In this document: positions 1,647 to 21,129 of the stretch, piece by piece
Layout of the letters: each line of letters begins with the position of its first letter
How positions within the stretch are numbered: the first letter of the stretch is position 1
DNA from: a virus
Direction: 5' to 3' (one strand)
Length of the DNA stretch: 38,874 bases
IMG/VR virus record: IMGVR_UViG_3300025636_000389
Span: 1-38,874 of that record
Notes under the pieces: generated by a model
Told to the model about the DNA's origin: nothing
Databases searched by the model: none
The model's input: the letters and a program-made list of their open reading frames with translations, nothing else
Made by a program: the position numbers and the translations under genes

Positions 1647-2357
1647 ATGAATACCGATATAAGTAAATTTAACACAGAAGGTTATGTCGTTATACGTCAA
1701 CCGATTGATTTTGAGTTTAAAGCTGAATTGATTGCTGAGTGTGGACGATTAAAAGATATAGGAGAGGAGCGACTAAGTAACGGTGATGGTTGGGTGATGA
1801 ATAGTCCCAATAACCCCTGTAAACTAGATGGTGCTATGAAGTCTAATCCTATATTTCGGAGACTTGGACAGAATAGAAAACTTGTCGATATCGCTAAAGA
1901 ACTTCTTGACATATCTGAAATAGACACGTATATTAGTAAGTTCTTTCCGATGATACCTTATACTGGATTCTCGGTGGGTTGGCATCAAGATAACCATTAT
2001 ATTAAAGCTGATCCGAGTAAGTTAATAAGTTGCGACATTTTCGTCCAAGGTGCTACTAAAGAAAGGGGTTGTCTCCGAGTAATACCAAGGTCACACCTAG
2101 AAAATCATGGTCATCATAAATCAAGTCATAATGGAATATTTAACTGGATGAGCGTTAACGACGCACACTCTGGTATATTGGATATAGAACTAGAAGAGTG
2201 TTTTGCCATATTCTTTCATCCCAACTTGGTTCATAGTTGTTATGAAAACAAAAGTAACGGATATCGATATAGTATAGCTTGGGAATATATTCAACGCGGT
2301 TACGTACCAAGCACCCATAATGGGCACATCTCACAGGATAGAATACAGGTAATATGA
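1647..2357 (+). CDS. PhyH-family Fe(II)/2-oxoglutarate dioxygenase
   Basis: This 236-residue protein matches the phytanoyl-CoA dioxygenase family. The iron ligands are HxD in GWHQDNH (His113, Asp115) and the distal His186 in FFHPNLVHSCYEN. Arg197 is placed to hold 2-oxoglutarate. The segment GCLRVIPRSHLENHG is the typical family strand-loop before the second His. Members hydroxylate small molecules or sugar- and lipid-linked substrates; the substrate here is unknown. The gene overlaps the next one by ATGA and lies between two glycosyltransferase-like genes, so a glycan or nucleotide-sugar substrate is a reasonable guess. Confidence 0.85.
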   Translation: MNTDISKFNTEGYVVIRQPIDFEFKAELIAECGRLKDIGEERLSNGDGWVMNSPNNPCKLDGAMKSNPIFRRLGQNRKLVDIAKELLDISEIDTYISKFFPMIPYTGFSVGWHQDNHYIKADPSKLISCDIFVQGATKERGCLRVIPRSHLENHGHHKSSHNGIFNWMSVNDAHSGILDIELEECFAIFFHPNLVHSCYENKSNGYRYSIAWEYIQRGYVPSTHNGHISQDRIQVI

Positions 2358-3154
2358 AAGTAAAACAAATAGTCATAAAAGGTAATGAAAAGTCGGAGGA
2401 GTATGCTGCTCTATCGCGACACTCTTTTCAACGTGCTATCGACGAAGGATATATTGATGGTATAGAAATATTTGATGCTATTACTCCAGAGTCTGATACG
2501 TTTCAAGAACATGTAGACAAATATGACTGGGCGCGTAGTTTGATGACTGTCGACCTGAATTCAGGTAACGGTAAGGACGACCATTCACCTACAGAAAAGG
2601 CGGGTATGTGTTCTCATTGGGAATTGATGAGACAGCAAGCAGAGAGTGATGAGAAGTTCTGGATTATTGAACATGATACTTGGATGATAGAAGAACGCTT
2701 CGACGCATTCAAGATGGCCACACACTTTGCCAAGGACACTATGTATGCGAATATAGGACTTTTTATGGGTATGTACTCTATGGATAAAAGTTTTGCTCAT
2801 TGGGCGTACTATATGTTAACTGTAAAAAACTTCCCTATCAATTGCGGGCCTTACTGTGTGCTACAAAGATTGTTTCGTACATACACGACACGTCATCTAG
2901 AACAACCTGATATAGATTTCTACGGGATAAATGATACTGCCATACATCCTTGGAATCAATGTGATACGCTATATGTTGGTCGTGATATCGGAATACCTTT
3001 TAATAAATCAGACAGACACCGGACTGGAATACCTAACCCTACCACTCAAGTGATTTCAAAACGACTTTGTGTCACGCAAGACCACCACGGTTATTCGGAC
3101 AGATATCAAAATGAACCTTGGACACGTCATCATTTCTTTAAAGTAATTGATTAA
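2354..3154 (+). CDS. Putative glycosyltransferase, GT25-like
   Basis: The 266-residue product resembles GT25 (LPS-type) transferases. The segment EKAGMCSHWELMRQ (81-94) corresponds to the GC(F)SH...W helix of the family, followed by FWIIEHDTWM (102-111), where GT25 enzymes have an acidic LEDDA-like metal site. Here that motif is EHD, so the match is imperfect. The gene overlaps the dioxygenase gene by four bases (ATGA), which implies translational coupling and joint action. Alternative: a divergent transferase whose activity has changed. Confidence 0.5.
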   Translation: MKVKQIVIKGNEKSEEYAALSRHSFQRAIDEGYIDGIEIFDAITPESDTFQEHVDKYDWARSLMTVDLNSGNGKDDHSPTEKAGMCSHWELMRQQAESDEKFWIIEHDTWMIEERFDAFKMATHFAKDTMYANIGLFMGMYSMDKSFAHWAYYMLTVKNFPINCGPYCVLQRLFRTYTTRHLEQPDIDFYGINDTAIHPWNQCDTLYVGRDIGIPFNKSDRHRTGIPNPTTQVISKRLCVTQDHHGYSDRYQNEPWTRHHFFKVID

Positions 3155-3163
3155 AAAATCCTC

Positions 3164-3192
3164 TTGACAGGCACGCTAAATAGTGTTATACT
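3164..3192 (+). promoter_or_regulatory. Sigma70 promoter of the methyltransferase-CmoA unit
   Basis: TTGACA (3164-3169) and TATACT (3187-3192) are 17 bases apart, directly after the preceding gene. The leader to the ATG at 3219 contains a GAGG ribosome site. The two downstream genes overlap, so this promoter probably drives both. Confidence 0.85.
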
Positions 3193-3218: not shown

Positions 3219-4367
3219 ATGACTTACACCCCATATATGTTGGAAGATGTTTATTTAGAGGCATCTAAGAAAAAATTTAATGTCGTCTCCACCTTCGCAG
3301 GTGGCGGCGGTTCATCCACTGGTTATCGTCTTGCTGGTGGAGATATCCTCGCAATCAACGAGTTTGTAGAAGAAGCACGTAACACATATAAAGATAACTA
3401 TCCTACCACACCTATAATCCCCAACGATATCAAAGAATTGTCGGGTCAAGACTTTCTAGACCTTGTCGGTCTCAAGAAAGGTGAGTTGGATATCCTCGAT
3501 GGGTCACCTCCTTGTTCTGCCTTTTCGGTTGCTGGTAAACTTTCACATTCTTCAGATGGTAAACATTCTGATGGGTGGGGACAGACCAAAAAATACTCTG
3601 ACGGTAAAATTGTAGAAAATATCGAAGACCTGTTCTTTGAGTTCTTGCGTGTCGCCAACGAGATTCAGCCTAAGGTTATTATTGCGGAGAACGTTAAAGG
3701 TCTTACTATTGGTGAGGCAAAAGAATATTACAACCGTATCCTGAATGAGTTTGAGAACATTGGATATGAAGTTGTTTCTGAAGTTATGGACTCTCGTTAT
3801 TATGGTGTCTCGCAGACTCGTTCGCGTGTAATATTTATTGCCGTGCGACAAGATGTTGCCGATGCTGTCGGTTTAAATATCTTAACTATGAATCACTTGT
3901 TCCCAGAACCAACAAAAACTGCGATACCACTCAAGGATGCTTTAGTTGGTCTGGAGTATGACGAGGAAGAAGTAAAATATTTGACCGAGAAGTTTGAAAG
4001 AACCGCCTACTGGAAACAGACTGGTTCTAAGATGGAGACCTTTCCTAAGAAAGTATTGACCGGTATGGATTATCACCCTAAAGGTCACCATTTCAACCTT
4101 AAACGTGTATCTCTCGAAGTCCCTGCCCCTACTCTTACCGCAATGGGTAATGGTGACACTACTGCCGGCGCATTCCACTGGAGTGAATCGAGAAAGTTGA
4201 CACTAGGCGAATTAAAGCGTATAATGTCACTTCCTGATGATTTTAAACTCACGGGTAAGTGGAACCAGAAGGCAGAACGTGTTGGTCGTATGGTTCCTCC
4301 ACTAATGATGAAAGCAGTCGCTGAGTCTGTCTATGAGAACGTATTGAAGGTGTATAATGAAAGATAG
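3219..4367 (+). CDS. C5-cytosine DNA methyltransferase with altered cofactor pocket (candidate carboxymethyltransferase)
   Basis: This 382-residue protein carries the ordered C5-cytosine methyltransferase motifs. Motif I is STFAGGGGSS (24-33). Motif IV is GSPPCSAFS with catalytic Cys99. Motif VI is AENVKG (156-161). Motif VIII is QTRSRV (199-204). Motif IX is RKLTLGELKRIMSLPDDF (325-342). Motif X is VGRMVPP (355-361). Two near-invariant cofactor-pocket residues differ: Gln after the catalytic Cys is Ser100, and Asn of GNxVPP is Arg357. An Asn-to-Lys change at this motif X site in M.MpeI is known to enable carboxy-SAM use. The next gene encodes a carboxy-SAM synthase homologue and overlaps by 11 bases. 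I infer that this enzyme transfers a carboxymethyl group to cytosine. Plain methylation remains possible. No restriction partner is seen. Confidence 0.9.
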   Translation: MTYTPYMLEDVYLEASKKKFNVVSTFAGGGGSSTGYRLAGGDILAINEFVEEARNTYKDNYPTTPIIPNDIKELSGQDFLDLVGLKKGELDILDGSPPCSAFSVAGKLSHSSDGKHSDGWGQTKKYSDGKIVENIEDLFFEFLRVANEIQPKVIIAENVKGLTIGEAKEYYNRILNEFENIGYEVVSEVMDSRYYGVSQTRSRVIFIAVRQDVADAVGLNILTMNHLFPEPTKTAIPLKDALVGLEYDEEEVKYLTEKFERTAYWKQTGSKMETFPKKVLTGMDYHPKGHHFNLKRVSLEVPAPTLTAMGNGDTTAGAFHWSESRKLTLGELKRIMSLPDDFKLTGKWNQKAERVGRMVPPLMMKAVAESVYENVLKVYNER

Positions 4368-5070
4368 AGAGAAGTATAAAGACTTTACGTTTGGTCACCG
4401 CGAAGAAGGTTTCGATAATCACATCGATGCTTCGATTCGTCACTACTCCACGCTCCATGATGACGTGGTAAACCTATCACGTTACTTTGTAGAGAACGAC
4501 ACCAAGGTTGTTGACATTGGATGTAGTACAGGTAAGACTATCGAAGCAATGATTGAACAGAATCATACTACTGCTCCTAACGCACATTACTGTGGTGTTG
4601 AGTATGCTCCAGTATTTCAAAACGAAATGACTGAGCGACAGACAAGACTTAACGAAGATGGTCACCACGTCTGTTTTCAAAACAAAAACATCATCCACCA
4701 CAACTTCGAGAATTGTTCCCTTGTGACATCTATCTTTACGTTACAGTTTATGCAACCTTTATGGAGAAAGAAAGTACTACAGAACATCTATGATGGTCTC
4801 AACGAAGGTGGTGCGTTTATCTTTGCCGAGAAGACCTATGCGGAGAACTCACGTATTCAAGACATGATGACCTCCACGTTCTATGAGTACAAGGCACAGC
4901 ACTTTACCTATGAAGATATTATGGAGAAAGAAAAGACTCTCCGAACTATGTTGAAACCGATGACTTGGAATGACCTTATCAGTCTACTGACCTCAGTTGG
5001 TTTTGATTCGACTAAGATTCAACCGTTCTGGATGAACCACCTATTTGTGGGTGCTATTGCCCTAAAGTAA
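4357..5070 (+). CDS. cmoA: CmoA-like carboxy-S-adenosylmethionine synthase
   Basis: This 237-residue class I SAM enzyme aligns along its whole length with bacterial CmoA, which converts SAM and prephenate to carboxy-SAM. Shared features are the SAM loop VVDIGCSTG (51-59, with the CmoA-like GCS), SIFTLQFMQP (125-134; NFTLQFLEP in E. coli) and IYDGLNEGGAFIFAEK (144-159). It also has an LRTML segment whose Arg196 aligns with E. coli Arg199, a residue I recall as binding the carboxylate, and the C-terminal VGAIALK. Length is near the bacterial 247. The start overlaps the methyltransferase gene. CmoB, the usual partner in tRNA wobble modification, is absent from the window, so supplying the neighbouring DNA enzyme is the favoured role. 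Alternative: boosting cmo5U modification of tRNA. Confidence 0.83.
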   Translation: MKDREKYKDFTFGHREEGFDNHIDASIRHYSTLHDDVVNLSRYFVENDTKVVDIGCSTGKTIEAMIEQNHTTAPNAHYCGVEYAPVFQNEMTERQTRLNEDGHHVCFQNKNIIHHNFENCSLVTSIFTLQFMQPLWRKKVLQNIYDGLNEGGAFIFAEKTYAENSRIQDMMTSTFYEYKAQHFTYEDIMEKEKTLRTMLKPMTWNDLISLLTSVGFDSTKIQPFWMNHLFVGAIALK

Positions 5071-5092: not shown

Positions 5093-5125
5093 CGGGAAGG
5101 TGATATTAATCCTTTCCGATTTTTT
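5093..5125 (+). terminator. Rho-independent terminator
   Basis: An eight-pair stem CGGGAAGG/CCTTTCCG (one G-T pair) with a ten-base loop is followed by ATTTTTT. It ends the methyltransferase-CmoA unit just before the polymerase promoter. Confidence 0.85.
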
Positions 5126-5128
5126 CTC

Positions 5129-5157
5129 TTGACATAACGTACATATTAATCTATAAT
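5129..5157 (+). promoter_or_regulatory. Sigma70 promoter of DNA polymerase, apparently leaderless
   Basis: TTGACA (5129-5134) and TATAAT (5152-5157) have a 17-base spacer. The ATG at 5164 follows the -10 box after only six bases, so the usual start point falls on or next to the A of ATG and no ribosome site can be transcribed. The same TATAATGGYCACATG arrangement occurs at 8067-8081. Confidence 0.85.
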
Positions 5158-5163
5158 GGCCAC

Positions 5164-7659
5164 ATGATAAAAAATACTAAAGAATTCTATACCTCAGTTG
5201 TCCGTCGCGGCAATAACTTGCTGTATCGCGGATACAAAAATGGCGAACGCGTCAAGAAAAAGATTGCGTTTAAACCCACTCTATTTGTCAATAGTGACAA
5301 AACCTCACCTTGGAAAACCCTAGACGGTCAGAATGTCGCGCCCGTGACTTTCGACTCTATGTCTGAGGCGACCGAGTTTGATAAACTGTATCGTGACGTT
5401 TCTAACGTCAATGTGTACGGTATGAATAACATGGTGTATCAGTACATCGCTAAAAAATTCCCGACCGATATCGACTTCGACCGTTCTTCGGTGGAAGTCA
5501 CTAACTTCGATATTGAGGTTGCGTCTGACGCGGGATTCCCTGAACCTAGTAAGGCCGAACATCCTGTCATCTCTATTACGTTACGCAAGAACGACGGTAT
5601 CTATTGGGTGTGGGGTCTGAATGACTATGTGGTCACACGTAAAGATGTCTTGTTTATCAAATGCGATAACGAGATGGATTTGTTGCGTAAGTTTATTGAC
5701 CACTGGAGTCGCCATACTCCCGACGTAATTACTGGCTGGAACACTATGGGATTTGATATTCCGTATATCATCAACCGTACGCGTAATCTATTTGGTGACG
5801 AGACTCTACTGTCTAAACTATCACCTTGGGGTATCATCCGCGAGCGCAATCGGGAATACTTTGGTAAGAAGGTTCAGGAATATATCCTTGAAGGTATTGA
5901 GCATCTCGATTACTTGGATGTTTACAAGAAGTTCACATATACCCAACAAGAATCGTATCGTCTCGACCACATCGCGACTGTCGAACTTGGTGAGCGTAAA
6001 ATCAACTACGAAGAACACGGCACCCTGTTTAATCTCTACAAAGAAGATTACCAGAAGTTCATTGACTATAACATTAAGGATGTTGAACTCGTTCATGCGT
6101 TGGACGAGAAACTCGACCTCATCTCTCTTATCCTGACTATGGCATATAAGGCAGGCGCCAACTACGGTGATACCCTAGGTACTACTAATATCTGGGACAG
6201 CATCATCTATCGTATGCTGAACGCGAAACAGATTGTCGTTCCACCTAAAACCGACAAACCTAAGTCCGCGTTTGCGGGTGGTTACGTGAAAGAACCTCAA
6301 GTCGGTTCGCACGAATGGGTAACCTCTTTCGATTTGAACTCTCTATATCCTAACATCATTGTTCAATACAATATGTCACCCGAGACGGTGTTGGATGGTA
6401 TTGTTCCAAATATGTCTGTGGATAAAATACTAGACGGTACTATGTATGGTGATGACTTCGATTATTCTACACTCAGTCATTCTATTGCGCCTACTGGTGT
6501 TAGATTCTCGCACGACCGAAAAGGTGTTGTTCCTTCAATCATCGAACAATACTATTCGGAACGTCGGGTAGTCAAGAAAGAGATGTTGGAACTTCAACAA
6601 GAGTATCAGCATAATCCATCTAAGGCGCTCCAGTATAAGATTACCTCACTGAACAATAAACAGGCCGCCATCAAGATTCTTATGAATTCACTTTATGGGG
6701 CCCTTGGGAATCGCTACTTCAGATATTTCGATCAGCGTGTTGCGGAATCAATTACTATTGCGGGACAACTCGCAATCAAATGGGCAGAGAGAGCCGTTAA
6801 CAATGAAATGCAAAACCTCCTTAAAACAGATGAAGACTACGTTGTGGCAATTGATACCGACTCTGTTTATATTCGTATGGGTGCCTTGGTTGATAAGTTT
6901 GCTCCTAAAGACCCTGTTAAATTCCTAGACAAGATTTGTTCCGAACACTTTGAGAAAGTTCTGGAAACATCTTACGCAGAGATGGCGAAGATTACTGGCG
7001 CATATAGTAATCGTATGGAGATGGGACGTGAGGTTATCGCTGACCGTGGTATCTGGATGGCTAAGAAACGTTACATCCTGAATGTACATAACAACGAGGG
7101 TGTCCAATACGCAGAACCTAAACTCAAGATGATGGGTATCGAGGCAATCAAGTCTTCGACACCTTCGGTCGTGCGTGACAAGTTCAAGGAAATCTTTCGG
7201 GTTATCGTAGAAGGTACCGAATCGGACACACAACGGTACATTTCTGACTTTAAGTCCCATTTCAGAACCTTACCGCCCGAAGATATTTCATTCCCTCGTG
7301 GTATATCTGCCCTGAACAAATGGGTAGACCGCAAGACTATCTTCAAGAAAGGTACTCCGATTCATGTGCGCGGTGCGTTGTGTTACAATGCCGCATTGAA
7401 GACTCACGGCCTGACACAGAAGTATCAGGAAGTCCAGACGGGCGAGAAGATTAAGTTCGTTTATCTGAAAGTTCCTAATTACTTGGGTCAGAATGTTATA
7501 TCATACCCACTTAATATGCCAAAAGAGTTGCGTCTACATACTCATATCGATTATGACCTGATGTTTACTAAAAGTTTCCTAGACCCACTTACTCCCATTC
7601 TTGATGCGGTTGGTTGGGACGCGGAACCTCCGTCGTCACTGGAGGACTTCTTTGGATAA
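5164..7659 (+). CDS. 43: Family B DNA polymerase, T4 gp43 type
   Basis: The replicative polymerase has 831 residues; T4 gp43 is about 900. The N-terminus aligns with T4 (KEFY..V...GNN). The 3'-5' exonuclease has FDIE (Asp116, Glu118), GWNTMGFDIPYI and YNIKDVELV. Polymerase motif A is SFDLNSLYP (Asp390), motif B is KILMNSLYGALGN and motif C is AIDTDSVY (Asp564, Asp566), followed by KKRY. The C-terminus SLEDFFG corresponds to the T4 tail SLDFLFG that binds the sliding clamp. The ATG at 5164 is kept because the N-terminus matches T4, although it leaves almost no leader. The next gene starts within its last codons and ends in the same tail. Confidence 0.97.
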   Translation: MIKNTKEFYTSVVRRGNNLLYRGYKNGERVKKKIAFKPTLFVNSDKTSPWKTLDGQNVAPVTFDSMSEATEFDKLYRDVSNVNVYGMNNMVYQYIAKKFPTDIDFDRSSVEVTNFDIEVASDAGFPEPSKAEHPVISITLRKNDGIYWVWGLNDYVVTRKDVLFIKCDNEMDLLRKFIDHWSRHTPDVITGWNTMGFDIPYIINRTRNLFGDETLLSKLSPWGIIRERNREYFGKKVQEYILEGIEHLDYLDVYKKFTYTQQESYRLDHIATVELGERKINYEEHGTLFNLYKEDYQKFIDYNIKDVELVHALDEKLDLISLILTMAYKAGANYGDTLGTTNIWDSIIYRMLNAKQIVVPPKTDKPKSAFAGGYVKEPQVGSHEWVTSFDLNSLYPNIIVQYNMSPETVLDGIVPNMSVDKILDGTMYGDDFDYSTLSHSIAPTGVRFSHDRKGVVPSIIEQYYSERRVVKKEMLELQQEYQHNPSKALQYKITSLNNKQAAIKILMNSLYGALGNRYFRYFDQRVAESITIAGQLAIKWAERAVNNEMQNLLKTDEDYVVAIDTDSVYIRMGALVDKFAPKDPVKFLDKICSEHFEKVLETSYAEMAKITGAYSNRMEMGREVIADRGIWMAKKRYILNVHNNEGVQYAEPKLKMMGIEAIKSSTPSVVRDKFKEIFRVIVEGTESDTQRYISDFKSHFRTLPPEDISFPRGISALNKWVDRKTIFKKGTPIHVRGALCYNAALKTHGLTQKYQEVQTGEKIKFVYLKVPNYLGQNVISYPLNMPKELRLHTHIDYDLMFTKSFLDPLTPILDAVGWDAEPPSSLEDFFG

Positions 7660-8047
7660 CATTATAGAACAAATGTTTACCAAGGACGAGATAGAAACAT
7701 ATAAAAATATACGAAGATGTCAACAGAATATTGGTAGATATTTAGAAGATTATATAAACACGGGATTGAGTGATAATATCGTCTTTGTTGGTCGTGATAA
7801 GAATAGACCCGAAGGTGTAGATTATATTGTAGATGGTGTACCGTGGTCTATAAAAAATGCTTGGAACACCGATAATCACTCTATGAAAAAGTATAGAGAG
7901 GATAGAAATATTCTTCATTGGTATAGATTGAATAAAGATAATTCTACTAACTGGCATACTTTTTTTATTAGGGGTCTATCTGAAAATGGTTTTAGAGAAT
8001 ATATGAACGCAGAACCCGTAGCTTCACTGGAGGATTTCTTCGGTTGA
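7652..8047 (+). CDS. Small putative nuclease with polymerase-like clamp-binding tail
   Basis: The start is taken as TTG at 7652, inside the last codons of the polymerase gene, because a GGAGG ribosome site lies at 7641-7645. An in-frame ATG at 7673 has none. The product is 131 residues. The core has GVDYIVDGVPWSIKNAWN, which resembles the D...(S/E)xK centre of PD-(D/E)xK-like restriction enzymes, with Ser in place of the acidic residue. The C-terminus ASLEDFFG is almost the same as the polymerase tail, and the DNA encoding the two tails is nearly identical. It may be a nuclease or accessory factor tethered to the sliding clamp. The tail is seen directly; the nuclease role is an inference. Confidence 0.65.
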   Translation: MDNIIEQMFTKDEIETYKNIRRCQQNIGRYLEDYINTGLSDNIVFVGRDKNRPEGVDYIVDGVPWSIKNAWNTDNHSMKKYREDRNILHWYRLNKDNSTNWHTFFIRGLSENGFREYMNAEPVASLEDFFG

Positions 8048-19779: not shown

Positions 19780-21129
19780 ATGAAAAAATTAATGTTAGTG
19801 ACAGTGACATCTTTATTGCTATCCGCCTGTGGTGGAGGTACCGAAACGTCTAATTTAGTTGAAGTTCCTTCTACTGTAAATCCTCCCACCCAAACACCCG
19901 TACAGATAGAGAGCGCAAAACTGCGCGACCTAATCATAGTCAGTGACCTCGTACTTCCTATGAGTGACGACTATAGTAATATCCCCCAAGACGTAATGAA
20001 TCCTATAACCGAGGAAAAGGTTAAATTGGGTAAGTTATTGTTCCATGAAACTGCTATGACTCTTGGTGTTACCGAAGAACATAAGAACACATTTTCTTGC
20101 GCATCTTGTCACAATGCGAGCGCAGGATTCAAGTCCGGTATTGCTCAAGGTGTGGGTGAAGGTGGTGTTGGTAATGGTGCGAACCGTGTTAATATATTAG
20201 GTGCCCTCGCTGACTTACAACCTCTCGCGTCTCCTACCGTAATGAATACCGCGTATCAAGAGGTTATGTTATGGAACGGTCAGTTTGGTAATGCGGTTGA
20301 TGGTATTGTCAATGTAGGTATTGATGAGTCCGTACTATCCACTGAAGGTACCCCTAAAGAGAATAATGCCCGACAGTGGTCTGGACTAGAAGTACAAGCA
20401 ATCGCTGGTCTGGGTGTACACCGTCTGAATGTTGGTGAGGGTTCCCCACTTGACACATTACCTGAATATCAAGAACTTGTTATGGAAATAGGTGGTGATG
20501 ACTTACTTACCACTGCCGCACAATCTATTGCCGCGTTTGAACGTACTATCTTGTCCAATGAAGCACCATTCCAGAAATGGTTACGTGGTGATGAGGACGC
20601 GTTATCTGAGACTGAACTAAAGGGTGCTCAAGTGTTTTTTGGTGATAAAGGTGGATGTTCCAGTTGTCACTCAGGGCCTGCTCTTAGTTCACCGCAATAT
20701 GCTACTAAGGAACAGATGTTCATGGCGGTCGGTTTCAGTGACTTAGATGTGAATGATAATATAACAAACGCAGATGCCATTAACGATGCGGTTCGTAAAG
20801 GTCGCGGTGGGTTTACTCAAGACGAGTTTGACGCCTATCAATTCAAAATTCCACCACTATACAATCTGACAGATTCTAAGTTTATGGGTCATGGCTCATC
20901 GTTTACGAGTGTGCGGGAAGTTGTGGAGTATAAGAACGCAGGTGTCGCTCAAGCGGATATGCCTTTAGATAGACTGGATTATAGATTTAGACCTCTAAAC
21001 TTGACTCCCGATGAAGTTACTCAATTGGTAACATTTATTGAGAAATCTCTATACGATGATAATTTACAGAGATATGTGCCGGATGCTCTACCTAGTGGAC
21101 AGTGCGTAGAAAATAATCCTGGCTGTTAA
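19780..21129 (+). CDS. Dihaem cytochrome c peroxidase (MauG/CcpA family), lipoprotein
   Basis: This 449-residue protein begins with a lipoprotein signal (LLLSACGGG, lipid Cys17). Two haem-binding CxxCH motifs follow: CASCH (107-111) and CSSCH (293-297). The spacing and segments such as LGKLLFHE, SPTVMNTAYQEVMLWNGQ, SIAAFERTILS, GAQVFFGDKGGCSSCH and PPLYNLTDSKFMGHG match bacterial dihaem peroxidases. These reduce hydrogen peroxide in the periplasm with electrons from cytochrome c. Haem attachment would depend on the host Ccm system. A full-length copy in a phage is unusual. It lies between tRNA-Ser and tRNA-Asp, a likely site for cargo gain. It may protect the infected cell from peroxide. Confidence 0.93.
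   Translation: MKKLMLVTVTSLLLSACGGGTETSNLVEVPSTVNPPTQTPVQIESAKLRDLIIVSDLVLPMSDDYSNIPQDVMNPITEEKVKLGKLLFHETAMTLGVTEEHKNTFSCASCHNASAGFKSGIAQGVGEGGVGNGANRVNILGALADLQPLASPTVMNTAYQEVMLWNGQFGNAVDGIVNVGIDESVLSTEGTPKENNARQWSGLEVQAIAGLGVHRLNVGEGSPLDTLPEYQELVMEIGGDDLLTTAAQSIAAFERTILSNEAPFQKWLRGDEDALSETELKGAQVFFGDKGGCSSCHSGPALSSPQYATKEQMFMAVGFSDLDVNDNITNADAINDAVRKGRGGFTQDEFDAYQFKIPPLYNLTDSKFMGHGSSFTSVREVVEYKNAGVAQADMPLDRLDYRFRPLNLTPDEVTQLVTFIEKSLYDDNLQRYVPDALPSGQCVENNPGC

Follow-up and report, generated by a model that had tools for sequence, protein, structure and literature searches.

A putative minimal DNA carboxymethylation operon in a T4-like phage contig from which the capping ligase gene is missing

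When a phage gene for a DNA cytosine C5-methyltransferase runs into a gene for a CmoA-like protein, does the pair write carboxymethyl groups into DNA, and if so, in what form is the modified base finished? Asn is the usual residue at motif X of C5-methyltransferases, and the role of bacterial CmoA lies in the cmo5U modification of tRNA. The question is raised by the stretch analysed here, termed the window, which is the whole 38,874-base contig of an IMG/VR record and a fragment of the genome of a marine T4-like phage; among annotated phages, the closest to it at the DNA level is C48C1, which is recorded under Kyanoviridae. A sequence-only reading had described the two overlapping genes, a shared promoter, a closing terminator and an Arg in place of the motif X Asn, all of which were recovered (Table 1), and had proposed a phage system for 5-carboxymethylcytosine (5cxmC) of a kind not described in nature.

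That claim of novelty is out of date, as cytosine carboxymethylation in Synechococcus phage S-B43 was published in Nat Commun in December 2025 (PMC12783734). In S-B43, CmoA makes carboxy-SAM, and CmoX (SpCmoX), which accepts only carboxy-SAM and not SAM, produces 5cxmC at GC, with Arg350 touching the carboxyl group and the R350N change abolishing activity (PMC12783734). CmoY then caps the 5cxmC carboxyl with glycine to give 5-glycylcarboxymethylcytosine (5gcxmC), the modification blocks HhaI, and virion DNA contains 5gcxmC with 5cxmC undetectable, which makes 5cxmC an intermediate (PMC12783734). The proposed system is thus supported in its chemistry, shown for a close homologue with the same Arg, with the correction that bare 5cxmC is not the finished base in the characterised phage; for the window the bare-carboxyl reading may hold, as CmoY is missing from the contig. 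The core mechanism is already published, and what is new is a variant without the capping ligase.

Table 1. Features of the gene pair and its immediate surroundings in the window.
Feature	Position	Strand	Basis
Sigma-70-like promoter, TTGACA-17-TATACT, TG before the -10 element	3164..3192	+	Score 11/12
cmoX, homologue of a DNA cytosine C5-carboxymethyltransferase; SPPC motif with Cys99 as nucleophile, motif X residue Arg357	3219..4367	+	Homology, motifs
cmoA, carboxy-SAM synthase homologue; 11-base overlap with cmoX (4357-4367)	4357..5070	+	Homology
Intrinsic terminator closing the pair; 8-bp stem 5093-5100/5111-5118, 10-base loop, T6	5093..5125	+	Hairpin
cmoY remnant, an exact match to the final 22 bases of sister-contig cmoY; would encode ...LSDFFS-stop	5111..5132	+	Identity
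Promoter of the downstream DNA polymerase gene, TTGACA-17-TATAAT; flanking, outside the pair	5129..5157	+	Promoter match

The upstream gene product (382 aa) matches the C5 DNA methylase family PF00145 (E=2.6e-54), scores above the cut-off of TIGR00675 and has as its best structural match PDB 8YF3 (E=1.5e-152), which is SpCmoX (PMC12783734), with 64% identity over the full length. The carboxy-SAM-contact and catalytic residues reported for SpCmoX (PMC12783734) that were compared are all conserved, F25, E47, F48, D69, S95-C98 and R350 corresponding to F26, E48, F49, D70, S96-C99 and R357, the last of these within the motif X sequence ERVGRMVPP. A basic residue at motif X lets the C5-methyltransferase M.MpeI N374K use carboxy-SAM (cited in PMC12783734), although that enzyme carries an engineered Lys and acts on a CG motif, whereas the window has a natural Arg. 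The window differs from S-B43 in gene order (CmoX-CmoA as against CmoA-CmoY-CmoX, the genes being adjacent in both) and in the target-recognition region, where 47 of 101 residues (47%) are identical, so that the recognition motif may differ from the GC of SpCmoX.

The downstream product (237 aa) resembles E. coli CmoA (4gek, E=5e-18), PHROG 4752 (E=2e-58, a family labelled 'tRNA methyltransferase') and the CmoA model TIGR00740 (E=1e-30), its 107 bits on the latter lying below an NCBIfam equivalog cut-off of 193 bits that may be tuned to bacterial CmoA. Among CmoX-adjacent CmoAs, identity is 53-55% to those of S-B43 (53%) and S-CRM01, and the S-B43 protein has been shown to be active (PMC12783734). 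The carboxylate is bound by Arg199 in E. coli CmoA (PMC3663124); the window protein carries Glu at that position (E192) and Arg (R196) at E. coli position 203, one helix turn on. This arrangement is the rule among the 88 phage CmoAs aligned from these loci, 85 having Glu at position 199 and 85 having Arg at position 203, and because the proven-active S-B43 enzyme has the same swap, Glu at 199 is not strong evidence against CmoA function. The alignment register is backed by gap-free phage CmoAs, of which L183 keeps Arg199/Glu203 and L184 has Ser/Arg, and we infer that Arg203 takes over the role of Arg199.

The two genes form an operon with a strong promoter in front, closed by a hairpin of -11 kcal/mol, with a z value of only -1.3, which a simple scan did not catch, probably owing to its 10-base loop. 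The arrangement recurs at 100% identity in another contig, L008. Compared with the sister contig L014, the dN/dS of CmoX is about 0.07 and that of CmoA about 0.09, values that average over both lineages and do not isolate the period after cmoY loss; such low ratios place both genes under purifying selection, which supports their being real.

Equally relevant is the company kept by the motif X residue. As a check on its own proposal, the sequence-only reading had asked whether Arg is equally common without cmoA, and the outcome did not refute the proposal. The loci compared come from viral contigs and phage records and were collected chiefly through their similarity to three query proteins; they are related sequences, some from the same record, rather than independent events. 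A CmoA homologue lies within the fetched stretch in 87 of the 96 with Arg, the other nine being mostly short contigs beyond whose ends cmoA may lie, and in 0 of the 81 with Leu, which form a homologous sister clade. These Leu-bearing, Melnitz-type C5-methyltransferases (40% identical) are also phage enzymes encoded beside the polymerase gene, but rather than CmoA they mostly accompany a homologue of a Melnitz protein that matches the TET/JBP oxygenase family Tet_JBP of Pfam (65/81). Such a pair is seen at L006:4010-6194, suggesting that 5-hydroxymethylcytosine may be formed there from 5-methylcytosine. An exception of the opposite kind is a Staphylococcus SPbeta-like phage (L184:4947-6646), in which cmoA directly adjoins a C5-methyltransferase whose apparent motif X has Gly instead of Arg.

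The fate of cmoY is recorded in the 93 bases between cmoA and the DNA polymerase gene. In the sister contigs (L009, L010, L012-L014 and L035), whose CmoX, CmoA and polymerase are 93%, 96% and 99% identical to those of the window, this interval holds three genes, with cmoY last and a homologue of the window gene at 762-1601 preceding it; in L014 the first of the three encodes a protein that is ParB-like by eye and has no Pfam match. The window has lost cmoY at this locus and retains only the exact final 22 bases of the sister gene, the identity continuing to 5134, into the -35 element of the polymerase promoter; the terminator now draws its 3' half from the remnant, which also overlaps that -35 element. 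Given the sister cassette and this remnant, the window lineage most likely lost, by deletion between cmoA and polymerase, a three-gene cassette ending in cmoY. The argument rests on the 22 bases because a CmoA tree, aimed at placing the loss, is poorly resolved near the window.

Two further features of this interval in relatives may be recorded. ParB-like-by-eye proteins of differing sequence, without Pfam matches, lie between cmoA and cmoY or polymerase at L014:11895-12785, L027:11997-12989 and L020:8138-9235. In addition, the CmoY tails of several relatives, such as TLSDFFS and DLSEFMS (L014:13643-14512 and L027:12989-13855), resemble SLEDFFG, with which the phage DNA polymerase ends (window 5164-7659), and are possibly sliding-clamp binding peptides, which would tie capping to replication.

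Searches for a capping enzyme found no match to PF00733 (Asn_synthase), SpCmoY, RimK or ATP-grasp_4 in the 38.9 kb contig, and none to the same four in the complete genomes of phages S-CRM01 and RN05-S. These two phages likewise combine CmoA and CmoX without a ligase of the families searched; they differ from the window in that their CmoX is 62-63% identical to its counterpart here and their proteins are annotated only as methyltransferases, and the main text of PMC12783734 names neither. Synechococcus MW02 is the recorded host of RN05-S as well as of S-B43, and their CmoAs are 99% identical, with cmoY absent between cmoA and cmoX in RN05-S.

Three other explanations of the window pair have to be set against carboxymethylation with an uncapped product. 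An ordinary 5-methylcytosine methyltransferase beside a CmoA whose task is tRNA wobble modification would accord with the PHROG 4752 label and with the tRNA role of the bacterial protein, but is very improbable given the strict substrate requirement of the close homologue SpCmoX, the effect of R350N and the way motif X Arg tracks with cmoA; S-B43, moreover, is without CmoB according to its authors (PMC12783734). It is similarly hard to credit that 5cxmC is modified further, towards a new hypermodification, by the products of the PhyH-type oxygenase gene at 1647-2357 and of the glycosyltransferase-like genes at 762-1601 and 2354-3154, all immediately upstream and oriented like the pair. CmoX is preceded by a promoter of its own, the 2354 gene is also present in phage C48C1, and PhyH and the 2354 gene occupy the same Hsp20-polymerase site in many phage contigs without CmoX in the fetched flanks, on which grounds this branch was rejected.

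More serious is the possibility that the window phage runs the full published pathway, with CmoY or another amide ligase encoded elsewhere in the genome and 5cxmC serving as an intermediate to 5gcxmC or another amide. In its favour, S-B43 virion DNA gave only 5gcxmC (PMC12783734), a PF00733 ligase is present in 16 of 33 searched records, the sister contigs have one, and a fragment of 38.9 kb leaves room for a ligase beyond its ends. We nevertheless regard this as a tentative alternative, with the odds leaning clearly against it: the ligase of the sisters sits at the very locus where the window keeps its last 22 bases, in L027, a relative of 145 kb, the only PF00733 gene again sits at this locus, and CmoX and CmoA are maintained without such a ligase in the complete RN05-S and S-CRM01 genomes. 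RimK and ATP-grasp proteins were rejected as substitute ligases, none being present in the window, S-CRM01 or RN05-S.

Overall, a minimal DNA carboxymethylation operon is the preferred reading of the window pair, at a probability of about 0.82 for carboxymethylation itself. CmoA would convert host SAM and prephenate to carboxy-SAM; CmoX would flip out a cytosine, probably in GC dinucleotides, which contain about 15% of the cytosines of the contig; Cys99 would attack C6; and Arg357 would grip the carboxylate of carboxy-SAM while the carboxymethyl group is transferred to C5, giving 5cxmC. Barring a ligase encoded elsewhere, the carboxymethyl group would probably be left uncapped as the end product because the cassette ending in cmoY was deleted; for the window phage as a whole, we put an uncapped 5cxmC end product at roughly even odds. 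The likely benefit is protection against host restriction enzymes; activity of both window proteins, GC specificity, the uncapped end product and this protective role are what we infer.

The tetranucleotide counts show no plain pattern of protection where a site contains GC. GCGC and GGCC occur about as often as expected; the GC-containing TGCA is strongly depleted in the window (21 against 127 expected), which sits uneasily with full protection at GC; GATC is strongly depleted as well (18 against 133), and relatives differ in which of GATC and TGCA they avoid.

Several neighbouring genes are of separate interest. The small gene after the DNA polymerase (7664-8047) is similar to restriction endonucleases of the SinI type (PF09570, E=0.001), its homologue in the L206 contig passes the Pfam cut-off, and its best PDB match is the type II enzyme 6g3b (E=0.04). 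SinI cuts GGWCC, a sequence with 0 occurrences in the window (about 36 expected) and 0 in 13 other loci longer than 8 kb flagged with a gene of this type, three of which come from the contig identical to the window. The 145 kb L027 record, which is without such a gene, is also free of GGWCC (0 against 126 expected), so the avoidance is not accounted for by this gene alone. The gene was also rejected as a restriction partner for CmoX, since most of its relatives come from loci lacking CmoX, and GGWCC, its probable target, contains no GC. At 19780-21129, an open reading frame with two CxxCH motifs (CASCH and CSSCH) looks, by eye only, like a di-haem cytochrome c peroxidase, an unusual phage cargo.

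For the phages that carry CmoX and CmoA without CmoY, including the window phage, RN05-S and S-CRM01, the finished base may be bare, negatively charged 5cxmC, a proposal about as probable as its opposite. RN05-S and S-B43 offer a clean comparison, with nearly identical CmoA, the same recorded host and cmoY only in S-B43. If the proposal is true, uncapped 5cxmC would be a finished natural base, and comparing these two phages would bear on the role of the glycine cap.
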